Shown piece by piece: positions 7,041 to 11,243 of a DNA stretch of 52,396 nucleotides. Both the position numbers and the translations under genes were made by a program. The stretch is from Candidatus Woesearchaeota archaeon. Its GTDB lineage: Archaea; Nanobdellota; Nanobdellia; SCGC-AAA011-G17; GW2011-AR18. The notes beneath the pieces were generated by a model. It was not told the DNA's origin, searched no databases, and worked only from the letters and a program-made list of their open reading frames with translations. The DNA is taken from contig JAGVZW010000001.1 of NCBI GenBank assembly GCA_018302235.1, forward strand, positions 1 to 52,396, in the 5' to 3' direction. Position 1 is the stretch's first letter; each line of letters begins with the position of its first letter.

Positions 7041-9077
7041 ATGGTTATGAATATAAATGAACAAATAGAAAAACTAACAGAATTTATAAGTGAAAATTAT
7101 AAGGATGAGATTTATGAATCTATACAAAAGGGAAAAAAGGCATTGATTATTGATTTTAAAGAATTAGCCAGATTCGACCATGAATTAGCAGAGGACTTGT
7201 TGCAGGTTCCAGAGGAAATAATTAAGGCATCTGAAATAGCTTTGAATCAGATTGATTTACCAGAGGAGAATACATTAAGAAGGATACGTTTTAGAAACCT
7301 TCCACAAACACAAAAGATAAAGATTGCTAATATAAGGTCATCACATTTGGATAAATTTGTTTCTGTAGAGGGAATAGTTAGACAGGCTTCGGATATAAGA
7401 CCCCAAGTCACTCAAGCAACCTTTGAGTGCCCTTCGTGTGGCAATTCAATTAAGATACTACAAATAACTCAAACTTTCAAAGAACCGAGCAGGTGTTCTT
7501 GTGGTAGAAAGGGTGCTTCTGCGTTTAAATTAATATCAAAGGAAATGATTGATGTACAGCACTTAAAAATAGAAGAGGCACCAGAATCGTTAGATGGAGG
7601 GGAACAACCAAAGCGTCTTTCTATTTTTGCAAAAGAGGACTTAGTTGAACCACAAATAGTTAAAAAAACTACGCCAGGTAGTAGAATTTTGGTTAATGGT
7701 GCTATTAAAGAAGTGGAGACTCAGTTAAGAACCGGCGTAAAGTCAGTTAGGTTTGATATTATAATGGAAGCGAATAATATAGAGGCTACACAAGAAGATT
7801 TCTCTGAAGTAGTTTTAACTAGGAAAGATGAGGAAGAGATAGAAAACTTTGCAAAAAATCCAAAATTATATGAAACTATTGCAAATTCAATTGCCCCATC
7901 TATATATGGTTATGAGTTAATTAAATTAGCATTAACTTTACAGTTGGTTGGTGGTGTAAGAAAATTAAAAGAAGATGGCACTATAACAAGGGGAGATATT
8001 CACATCTTACTAATTGGTGATCCTGGTAGTGGAAAGAGTCAGATATTACAATTTATTGCTAAGAATGCTCCTAAGGCAAGATTTGTTTCAGGGAAGGGTA
8101 GTTCTGGTGCTGGATTGACTGCGAGTGTAATAAAGGATGAATTTCTTCGTGGTTGGTCTCTAGAGGCTGGTGCTTTGGTTTTGGCAAATAAGGGTCTTGC
8201 AGTTGTAGATGAGTTAGACAAAATGGCGCCCGAAGATAGAAGTGCTTTACATGAAGCATTGGAACAACAACAAGTTACTATATCTAAGGCAAATATTCAA
8301 GCAAGTTTAAGGGCAGAAACAACATTGTTAGCAGCAGCAAATCCTAAGGGAAGCCGTTTTGATCCATATACACCGATCCCACAGCAAATTGATCTTCCAC
8401 CAACTTTGTTAAATAGATTTGATCTAATCTTTCCTATAAGAGATATTCCAAATAAAGATAGAGATGAAGAGATTGCAACACATGTATTAGAAACCACACA
8501 GAAAAAGGAATCATACAAAGATAATGTTCCTTCTGTATTCCTTAAAAAATATATTTCTTATGTAAAACAAAGAATAAAACCAGAATTAACAAAGCAAGCA
8601 ATTAAGGAGATAAAAGATTTTTATGTTAATCTAAGGAATAGTCCATCAAGTGGTGATATTCAGGCAGTAAAACCAATACCAATCTCTGCGAGACAGTTGG
8701 AGGGATTGATAAGATTGACTGAAGCATCTGCTAAACTACGTTTAGATACCAGAGCATCAAAAGATGATGCTAAAAGGGCGATATCCTTATTAACATATTG
8801 TTTAAATCAGGTTGGAATTGATCCAGAAACAGGACAAATAGATATGGATAGAATATCTGGAACAACTACTGCTTCTAGCAGAAATAAGATAATAATTGTA
8901 AAAGAAATTATAAAGATTTTAGAGGATGCTGGGTTAAAAACAATTCCTATTGAAGAAATATTTGCAAAGGCCCATGAGAGGGGTTTGAAAGAGGATAAAA
9001 TAGAAGAGACAATTGAACAATTAAAAAAGTCAGGTGAAATATTTGAACCAAAAAAAGGATTTATTCAAAGAATATGA
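7041..9077 (+). CDS. mcm: MCM replicative DNA helicase
   Basis: Hexameric 3'-5' helicase that unwinds DNA at replication forks. The domains are all in order: an N-terminal domain with a zinc site (CPSCG then CSCG, residues about 130-157) and OB fold; an AAA+ core with Walker A GDPGSGKSQ near residue 330, Walker B VVDELDKM and the arginine-finger region LLNRFDL; and a C-terminal winged helix (IEEIFAKAHERGLKEDKIEETI). At 678 residues it has the usual length and no intein. The start could be 7041 or the in-frame ATG at 7047. It overlaps the next gene by 4 nt (ATGA), so the two are probably translated together. Confidence 0.97.
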   Translation: MVMNINEQIEKLTEFISENYKDEIYESIQKGKKALIIDFKELARFDHELAEDLLQVPEEIIKASEIALNQIDLPEENTLRRIRFRNLPQTQKIKIANIRSSHLDKFVSVEGIVRQASDIRPQVTQATFECPSCGNSIKILQITQTFKEPSRCSCGRKGASAFKLISKEMIDVQHLKIEEAPESLDGGEQPKRLSIFAKEDLVEPQIVKKTTPGSRILVNGAIKEVETQLRTGVKSVRFDIIMEANNIEATQEDFSEVVLTRKDEEEIENFAKNPKLYETIANSIAPSIYGYELIKLALTLQLVGGVRKLKEDGTITRGDIHILLIGDPGSGKSQILQFIAKNAPKARFVSGKGSSGAGLTASVIKDEFLRGWSLEAGALVLANKGLAVVDELDKMAPEDRSALHEALEQQQVTISKANIQASLRAETTLLAAANPKGSRFDPYTPIPQQIDLPPTLLNRFDLIFPIRDIPNKDRDEEIATHVLETTQKKESYKDNVPSVFLKKYISYVKQRIKPELTKQAIKEIKDFYVNLRNSPSSGDIQAVKPIPISARQLEGLIRLTEASAKLRLDTRASKDDAKRAISLLTYCLNQVGIDPETGQIDMDRISGTTTASSRNKIIIVKEIIKILEDAGLKTIPIEEIFAKAHERGLKEDKIEETIEQLKKSGEIFEPKKGFIQRI

Positions 9078-9724
9078 CCGCAAGATTCCAAAGACAAACT
9101 GCATTTAGATTATGGATATCAGATATAATTAATGCTCAATTTGTTAATCCAAAACAAGAGTTTACTCCATCATATATTATAACGAGAGAATTGCATGTAT
9201 CTAGAGTAAATTTTATAAGTATATGTATAGAAAAACAGATTACTGAAAATTATGGATTTATTGTTGTAGATGATTCTTCAGCACAGATTCAAATTACGGC
9301 TTGGAATGAGGATGTGAATATTTTAAAAAATATTCAATGTGAACAGATTTTAAATATAATTGGTAAAGTAAGATATTTTAATAACCAAGTGTACATATCT
9401 CCAGAGATAATTAGAGAGGTTGAGAGGGAATGGTTGAAAATAAGAATTTTGGAATTAAAAAGGCTTTATGGGGAACCAATAAAAGAAGAAAAAATTAAAC
9501 AAAAGGTTATGTTTATTGATGCAGGAGATATGTCTCCCTTATCCAAAAGAGAAATTATTCTGAAATTAATAGAGAAATTAGATGAAAAATATGGTGCAGA
9601 TATAATAGAAGTTATTAAACAATCAAAACTACAACAGCAAGATGCAGAGAATATAATAAAAGAGCTTATTAAAGAGGGAGAGATCTTCGAAATTAAATCT
9701 GGACATTTAAGAACAATAATGTAA
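9074..9724 (+). CDS. RPA-like single-stranded DNA-binding protein (OB fold plus winged helix)
   Basis: Probably binds single-stranded DNA at the replication fork. Residues about 35-125 form an OB fold (GFIVVDDSSAQIQITAW, then LNIIGKVRYFNNQVYISPE), as in the Rpa32/RPA2 family. The last 60 residues (SKREIILKLIEKLDEKYGADIIEVI and onward) form a winged helix, a domain order shared with eukaryotic RPA32. The ATG overlaps the mcm stop codon, which indicates coupled expression and supports a replication role. No zinc finger is present, unlike the larger archaeal RPA subunits. Partner subunits are not in this window. Confidence 0.82.
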   Translation: MTARFQRQTAFRLWISDIINAQFVNPKQEFTPSYIITRELHVSRVNFISICIEKQITENYGFIVVDDSSAQIQITAWNEDVNILKNIQCEQILNIIGKVRYFNNQVYISPEIIREVEREWLKIRILELKRLYGEPIKEEKIKQKVMFIDAGDMSPLSKREIILKLIEKLDEKYGADIIEVIKQSKLQQQDAENIIKELIKEGEIFEIKSGHLRTIM

Positions 9725-9878
9725 ATATTTTATAAAGTATATATAATTTATAGAAAAAAATAAATCTTATCTATCTTTAATTATTATAATTTTTTGCACA
9801 ATAATCTCTTTAATAATATTAATTTTTATTTGAGCAAATCTAGGAACATGGAAAGATTAGAATGGAAATATCATAAAT

Positions 9879-10040
9879 ATGTCAACAAGTATAAAATTAA
9901 TAGTTACTATAATCATTCTAATAATAATAACCTCTATTTGGATCGTTTATTCTAGAAAAAAAGCAATTAATCAAACAATACAAAATCCAAAAACAACTGG
10001 AGAAAAAATAATATCCACAAGTTACAAATTAGCTGGTTGA
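9879..10040 (+). CDS. Small single-helix membrane protein (53 residues)
   Basis: This gene is below the ORF-track cutoff. The ATG at 9879 opens a 53-codon frame ending in TGA at 10038-10040. The product begins MSTSIKLIVTIIILIIITSIW, a strong membrane helix or uncleaved signal anchor, followed by a basic stop-transfer stretch (YSRKK) and a polar tail. The next open frame starts 3 nt after its stop, so they may form one unit. I do not recognise a family. The 155 bp between it and the RPA-like gene is AT-rich with no other clear gene. Confidence 0.5.
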   Translation: MSTSIKLIVTIIILIIITSIWIVYSRKKAINQTIQNPKTTGEKIISTSYKLAG

Positions 10041-10043
10041 AGA

Positions 10044-10256
10044 ATGAGATTAAAAGCAATAGGGTCATTAATTACTGGAATTCTTTTATTAATTTTAGGA
10101 ATTATTTTAACAATTACCTTGAATTCACCAAAATCACTTATCCTTTCAGGAATAGGAATATTAACAATTTTATTTGCATTATTACAATTCAAACTTGCAA
10201 AAAAGTCTATCAAGGACAACTATAAGATTTATAAATTATATCTATTTCTTATTTAT
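10044..10256 (+). other. In-frame two-helix membrane segment upstream of aIF2-beta
   Basis: The frame of aIF2-beta stays open without a stop from an ATG at 10044. These 71 codons encode two plausible membrane helices (GSLITGILLLILGIILTITL and SLILSGIGILTILFALLQFKL) and then KLAKKSIKDN. Translated through, it would make a 203-residue membrane-tethered aIF2-beta. The TATA box at 10228-10237 instead suggests that aIF2-beta is expressed separately from 10257. The segment could then be the start of a small membrane protein whose stop codon was lost, or one that runs on into aIF2-beta. Both readings remain open. Confidence 0.4.
10228..10237 (+). promoter_or_regulatory. TATA box for aIF2-beta
   Basis: TTTATAAATT is centred about 25 nt before the ATG at 10257. 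This fits leaderless transcription and argues that the short form of aIF2-beta is the main product. Confidence 0.55.
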
Positions 10257-10655
10257 ATGAATTATGAAGAAATGTTAGATCAAGGCATGAAAGCATTGCC
10301 AGAGAAAATAGTAAAAACTGAAAGATTTGAAATACCAAAGGTTAAGGGCCATATACAAGGCAATAAGACAATAATAACTAATTTTTATCAGATTGTGCAA
10401 GCGTTTAGAAGAGAAGAAGAGCATTTTTTAAAGTATTTGTTAAGAGAATTAGCTACTCCTGGGAAATTAGAGGGAACACTGTTAATAATCGGGAGAAAGA
10501 TTTCGTCTACATTGATTAATCAAAAAATTAAACAATATGCACATACTTATGTTCTTTGTTTCACATGCGGTAAACCAGATACACAGATAATAGTTAAAGA
10601 AGGAAAAACATTATTGAAGTGTACAGCTTGTGGTGCACAAATACCAATAAAATGA
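10257..10655 (+). CDS. Translation initiation factor 2 subunit beta (aIF2-beta)
   Basis: Subunit of the heterotrimeric aIF2 that delivers initiator Met-tRNA to the small ribosomal subunit. From the ATG at 10257 the protein is 132 residues, close to the archaeal norm. It has the N-terminal helix that docks on the gamma subunit (MNYEEMLDQGMKALPE), the central alpha/beta domain (YLLRELATPGKLEGTLLIIGR) and a C-terminal zinc ribbon with two Cys pairs (CFTCG and CTACG). The ORF track starts at 10044, adding two membrane helices that no known aIF2-beta has; the family N-terminus and a TATA box both favour 10257. It overlaps the DUF424 gene by 4 nt. Confidence 0.93.
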   Translation: MNYEEMLDQGMKALPEKIVKTERFEIPKVKGHIQGNKTIITNFYQIVQAFRREEEHFLKYLLRELATPGKLEGTLLIIGRKISSTLINQKIKQYAHTYVLCFTCGKPDTQIIVKEGKTLLKCTACGAQIPIK

Positions 10656-10951
10656 AATTCTATGTAAAGATTCATAAATCGAAAATAAGCTGTGTTGCAG
10701 CTATTGCAGACGAGTTGATAATAGGAAAAACATTCAAAGGCGAGAATAATACAAAAATAACAGTTTCAGAATTCTTTTATAAAGGGGAGTTATACCCTGA
10801 AGATAAAGTAATAGGAATACTTAAAGAATTTTTGAATTTGAATATTATTGGAGAAAATATAGTAGGTTTAGCAAAAAGATTAAACCTTATAAATGAGAAG
10901 GATATCATTTATTTTGAAAATGCCCCACATTGTCAAATCTACTGCGTCTAA
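10652..10951 (+). CDS. DUF424 family protein
   Basis: A small archaeal protein of unknown biochemical role in the DUF424 family. The ATG at 10652 (MKFYVKIHKSKISCVAAIADELIIGKTF) matches the family start, so the 11 extra codons of the ORF track, which lie inside aIF2-beta, are dropped. It overlaps the stop of aIF2-beta by 4 nt and runs 32 nt into the next gene, giving a tight translation-linked operon. As I recall, DUF424 genes sit next to translation genes in other archaea too, which supports a role around the ribosome; that role is inference. Confidence 0.85.
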   Translation: MKFYVKIHKSKISCVAAIADELIIGKTFKGENNTKITVSEFFYKGELYPEDKVIGILKEFLNLNIIGENIVGLAKRLNLINEKDIIYFENAPHCQIYCV

Positions 10952-11243
10952 ACATTGTATGTATTATGAAGCAAAAATACAATTAAGACCATATAAACAA
11001 GCAATTTATGATTTTATATATCAACAAATTAAAAAATATCCTCAGATTTGGATTTCAAAAGAAGAAAAAGAAAAAACAGGAATAGATATATATATTTCTT
11101 CACAAAAATTTGCTCGATGTACTTTAGCTCCAAAAATAAAAAAAATTTTCAAGGCAAATGTTATAATTTCAAAACAAATTTATGGTATACATAGAGACAA
11201 ACAAAGACCTATTTATCGTGCAACTGTTTTAATTAGAACTTAA
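10920..11243 (+). CDS. Small NMD3-like protein
   Basis: It resembles the core of archaeal NMD3 (COG1499), a factor tied to large-subunit ribosome maturation. The supporting segment is YYEAKIQLRPYKQAIYDFIYQQI, followed by a beta-rich stretch ending RPIYRATVLIRT. Full archaeal NMD3 proteins are at least twice as long and begin with paired CxxC zinc knuckles. Here only one Cys remains in that region and the whole product is about 107 residues. The start at 10920 overlaps DUF424 by 32 nt; 10893 is also possible. Its place after aIF2-beta and DUF424 supports a translation role. It may instead be an unrelated small protein. Confidence 0.5.
   Translation: MPHIVKSTASKHCMYYEAKIQLRPYKQAIYDFIYQQIKKYPQIWISKEEKEKTGIDIYISSQKFARCTLAPKIKKIFKANVIISKQIYGIHRDKQRPIYRATVLIRT

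Follow-up and report, generated by a model that had tools for sequence, protein, structure and literature searches.

A probably conventional aIF2-beta gene in frame with an upstream two-helix membrane ORF in a Candidatus Woesearchaeota genome

Results

The window analyzed here is a stretch of 52,396 nt from a Candidatus Woesearchaeota archaeon (assembly GCA_018302235.1, contig JAGVZW010000001.1). On its forward strand, an RPA-like OB-fold protein gene (9074–9724; Pfam tRNA_anti-codon OB fold, 5.6e-8), the usual upstream neighbor of aIF2-beta in relatives, is followed by a 53-aa ORF with one membrane-like helix (9879–10040), for which we found neither a homolog, nor a TATA box at leaderless distance, nor a strong SD. 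Next comes a frame that stays open without interruption for 203 codons, from ATG 10044 to TGA 10655. Its residues 1–71 (10044–10256) form a two-helix membrane segment with no stop, and residues 72–203 are aIF2-beta itself (10257–10655), 132 aa long, with a conserved start and predicted to be leaderless. A DUF424 protein gene (10652–10951; Pfam PF04242, 3.2e-16) lies downstream; its start overlaps the aIF2-beta stop (ATGA, 10652–10655), which suggests translational coupling. Beyond it, an ORF of about 94–116 aa (10893–11243, likely start ATG 10959) matches only residues 143–242 of the 243 in the NMD3 family model (1.8e-10), and is a stand-alone NMD3 piece without the N-terminal zinc-finger part.

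An earlier note on this DNA had described a 71-codon upstream extension of the aIF2-beta frame, opening with an ATG 3 nt past a small ORF and encoding two membrane helices, and both descriptions are borne out. The 53-aa ORF ends in TGA, a single AGA codon follows, and ATG 10044 thus stands 3 nt after the stop; hydropathy windows at residues 6–24 (mean 2.68) and 31–49 (2.19) of the 71-aa segment are both membrane-like. The extension also contains the aIF2-beta promoter, a TATA box TTTATAAA at 10228–10235 that starts 29 nt before ATG 10257, and its last ten codons (I-Y-K-L-Y-L-F-L-I-Y) are this box and the stretch leading up to the start. The two small ORFs (9879–10256) share one frame, separated by one TGA and one codon. 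Readthrough of that TGA, which would join them, was considered and rejected, given that MCM and aIF2-beta themselves end in TGA.

Pfam PF01873 matches residues 90–199 (6e-32, 110.4 bits against a cut-off of 27), and the NCBIfam models TIGR00311 and PRK03988 score 149 and 160.8, above their cut-offs of 137.65 and 129. These equivalogs of aIF2-beta begin at residues 71–73 of the fused frame, and in the PDB chains 1nee, 2d74 and 3cw2, chain residues 4–6 align to residues 70–73. The 1nee alignment is full-length, from residue 73 to 203, with the N-terminal segment, the central domain and the C-terminal Cys4 zinc ribbon all present; the ribbon cysteines C172, C175, C193 and C196 are invariant. The 17 aligned relatives all begin within two residues of Met72. 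Since homology begins at residues 70–73 both in the solved chains and in the family models, translation from Met72 gives a complete factor. Almost certainly, then, aIF2-beta has its usual start (Met72, ATG 10257) and a promoter of its own. Judged from its sequence, the product would be soluble and free of a membrane segment if it starts at 10257, and would not be so if it starts at 10044.

The promoter signals can be compared both with other aIF2-beta loci and with other genes of the window. Of 32 aIF2-beta loci, 26 have a TATA-like element whose first base falls between −34 and −27; every other 8-nt bin has 0–3. Here the box starts at −29, as it does at the window genes 17704, 18024, 38231 and 47367. 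Within the 52,396-nt window, to which the promoter statistics are restricted, 16 of 50 likely gene starts have a TATA-like element in the −34 to −27 bin and 1–5 in each of the other bins. With a TATA position-weight matrix, 10257 falls only within the top 1% of window positions, and the positional test is the stronger evidence. ATG 10257 has no SD (+2.8 kcal/mol), like other leaderless-type genes of the window, and its transcript is probably leaderless. The proposal that a TATA box inside the extension points to a separate short product is therefore supported, by the leaderless distance and by the conservation of the element at aIF2-beta in relatives. At ATG 10044, the upstream sequence offers a weak SD-like GGTTGA (−3.9 kcal/mol, a value matched by 15% of all ATGs), and the positional test finds no TATA box. 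A second TTTATAAA occurs at 9729–9736, just past the RPA-like gene; no start codon stands at leaderless distance from it, and it could start a leadered transcript over both small membrane ORFs.

Several lines of evidence bear on the nature of the membrane ORF. In first-order Markov simulations with local or window composition, 0.15–0.33% of 71-codon stretches are open, and of these open stretches, 0.4–1.2% hold two such hydrophobic windows. Both properties being rare, chance is an unlikely source of the membrane ORF. Its codon score (0.089) is in the low range of the window genes and overlaps the scores of wrong frames; against random sequence of equal composition, it ranks above the 99th percentile. 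Searches for homologs of the 71-aa segment gave nothing beyond low-complexity hydrophobic matches in 60 relatives and nothing in phages or viral contigs, and a search of the rest of the genome for homologs of the 53-aa ORF gave none that is credible. Weak Pfam and NCBIfam matches of the segment to DUF308, 8xMP, MakA and STM3941 are far below the cut-offs and reflect hydrophobic composition, so that none was accepted as its identity. The two-helix segment looks protein-coding and has to end somewhere. As the sequence stands, a ribosome starting at 10044 would make a 203-aa fusion. The AlphaFold model of this protein has a mean pLDDT of 78.8 (near 90–97 in the core, mostly 52–75 in the hairpin) and consists of a helical hairpin (2–27, 33–70) followed by a separate helix (74–83) at the start of aIF2-beta.

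We then compared the locus with relatives, all of them from outside the genus of the window. In all 31 relatives read, an in-frame stop lies 0–38 codons upstream of aIF2-beta. Many of these 31 have the RPA-like gene directly upstream, across a gap of about 30–110 nt; the junction here spans about 320 nt and holds two small ORFs, both hydrophobic, of 53 and 71+ codons. The junction varies in other family members as well, with a NUDIX-type ORF in G003, an opposite-strand ORF in G008 and two other small ORFs of 56 and 47 aa in G009. In family members, the aIF2-beta frame often stays open across the promoter DNA, for up to 38 codons, so that an arriving gene joins aIF2-beta unless it brings its own stop. 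In a further family member, G002 (98% complete), the aIF2-beta match was not found; the gene may be absent from the assembly, or split.

Broader surveys place the length of the frame in context. Among 93 matched genomes of the order, the aIF2-beta frame of the window is the longest (204, the next being 201), and among 226 matched genomes of the phylum longer ones exist, up to at least 271 among the matches listed. Elsewhere in the phylum, aIF2-beta frames extend upstream by 39–137 codons, and these extensions lack two helices. Indeed, no two-helix extension was present in 16 of the longest open aIF2-beta frames among the matches listed in the two surveys, which cover about 300 genomes (those read were G081, G293, G248, G156, G232, G135, G195, G141, G224, G257, G264, G191, G105, G201, G025 and G012). 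In many of these 16, a TATA-like element precedes the conserved start; the open stretches themselves look attributable to chance or to higher G+C. An open frame upstream of aIF2-beta is thus not itself remarkable; what is unusual here is the membrane ORF that fills it.

Discussion

We favor, with a probability of about three in four, a conventional aIF2-beta gene with its own TATA promoter and a leaderless mRNA, situated behind a lineage-specific small membrane ORF that has no stop. Under this reading, the working start of aIF2-beta would be ATG 10257, and the promoter at 10228–10235 would give rise to the leaderless message. The small membrane ORF, running from 10044 onward, would have come into the variable junction between the RPA-like gene and aIF2-beta and, having no stop in this sequence, would continue in frame across the promoter and into aIF2-beta. 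With the promoter DNA open in frame, joining aIF2-beta needs only the absence of one stop. The short form would be the functional factor, and any long form arising from upstream transcripts would probably be incidental.

How the membrane ORF came to have no stop admits three readings, which all remain: loss of the stop in the organism, a frameshift, or a wrong consensus. Loss of a stop codon, one of the two options in the earlier note, fits the data, and on these data it is indistinguishable from a consensus error. That a single-base indel or substitution in the consensus hides the stop, the two genes being separate and merely abutting in the organism, is a tentative alternative to which we give a minor share of our belief. 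The sequence comes from a single metagenome-type assembly of 37 contigs, and just past the second helix there is an A6 run (10199–10204), the only homopolymer of at least five in the segment. One more A in this run would end the membrane ORF at a TAA in the +2 frame (10223–10225), 3 nt before the TATA box, which makes this TAA a speculative end of the ORF; of the 180 substitutions in the final 20 codons of the extension, 15 would create a stop. However, the pattern of run and TAA is only suggestive, because any frame can be expected to meet a stop within a dozen codons or so; moreover, short-read methods usually get A runs of six bases right, and the gene pair may simply have drifted. That the upstream segment goes untranslated, as an ORF in decay or without expression, seems to us rather improbable. 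Such a state would suit two small ORFs that both lack a promoter at leaderless distance, a strong SD and detected homologs, but it accords poorly with helices as well formed as these two, with a frame that stays open much longer than expected, and with a codon score that, though within the range of wrong frames, exceeds the 99th percentile for random sequence.

Membrane tethering of the initiation factor is possible, though unlikely. Its fullest version, in which translation of one frame gives a soluble aIF2-beta when started at 10257 and a 203-aa isoform anchored in the membrane when started at 10044, with initiation taking place partly at the membrane, seems to us very improbable. The frame is indeed uninterrupted, and positive charge at both termini of the hairpin would put aIF2-beta on the cytoplasmic side. 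In the model, in which confidence in the hairpin is moderate, the separate helix 74–83 suggests that the fused form need not disturb the aIF2-beta core; internal-start isoforms have also been reported in haloarchaea (Ten-Caten 2018, as cited in PMC10134880). The fused protein would thus be feasible, judging by the hairpin model and the charges. On the other side, the fused frame occurs in none of the relatives read or the long open frames inspected, the 71-aa segment has no detectable homolog, the initiation signals at 10044 are weak, and the end of the extension is promoter DNA. Hence the claim that reading through would tether an initiation factor to the membrane does not find comparative support: the segment is found in none of the relatives, and the canonical start is served by a promoter of its own.

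The conventional reading serves mainly as a caution for annotation: software that picks the longest frame would label this aIF2-beta a membrane protein, whereas its start, judged by where the promoter lies and by the relatives, is 71 codons further downstream. Should the long form indeed be produced, it would represent an archaeal initiation factor bound to the membrane; a limited literature search returned no precedent for such a factor.

Set beside known systems, residues 72–203 align end to end with aIF2-beta (TIGR00311, PRK03988, PF01873; 1nee, 2d74, 3cw2), including the N-terminal segment and the zinc-binding cysteines; unlike known aIF2-beta, the gene here is preceded by 71 extra in-frame codons, present in none of the relatives compared or the solved chains. 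Like leaderless archaeal genes, which have a TATA box about 26–30 nt before the start codon, it has TTTATAAA at −29 and no SD, whereas, in contrast to the typical case, its promoter lies inside an open frame that runs on into the gene. Internal transcripts giving N-terminally shorter archaeal proteins, as attributed to Ten-Caten et al. 2018 in PMC10134880, are comparable in that a promoter within an ORF could yield a shorter product of that same frame. Unlike the cases ascribed to that study, the short form here would be the ancestral one and the longer frame the newcomer.
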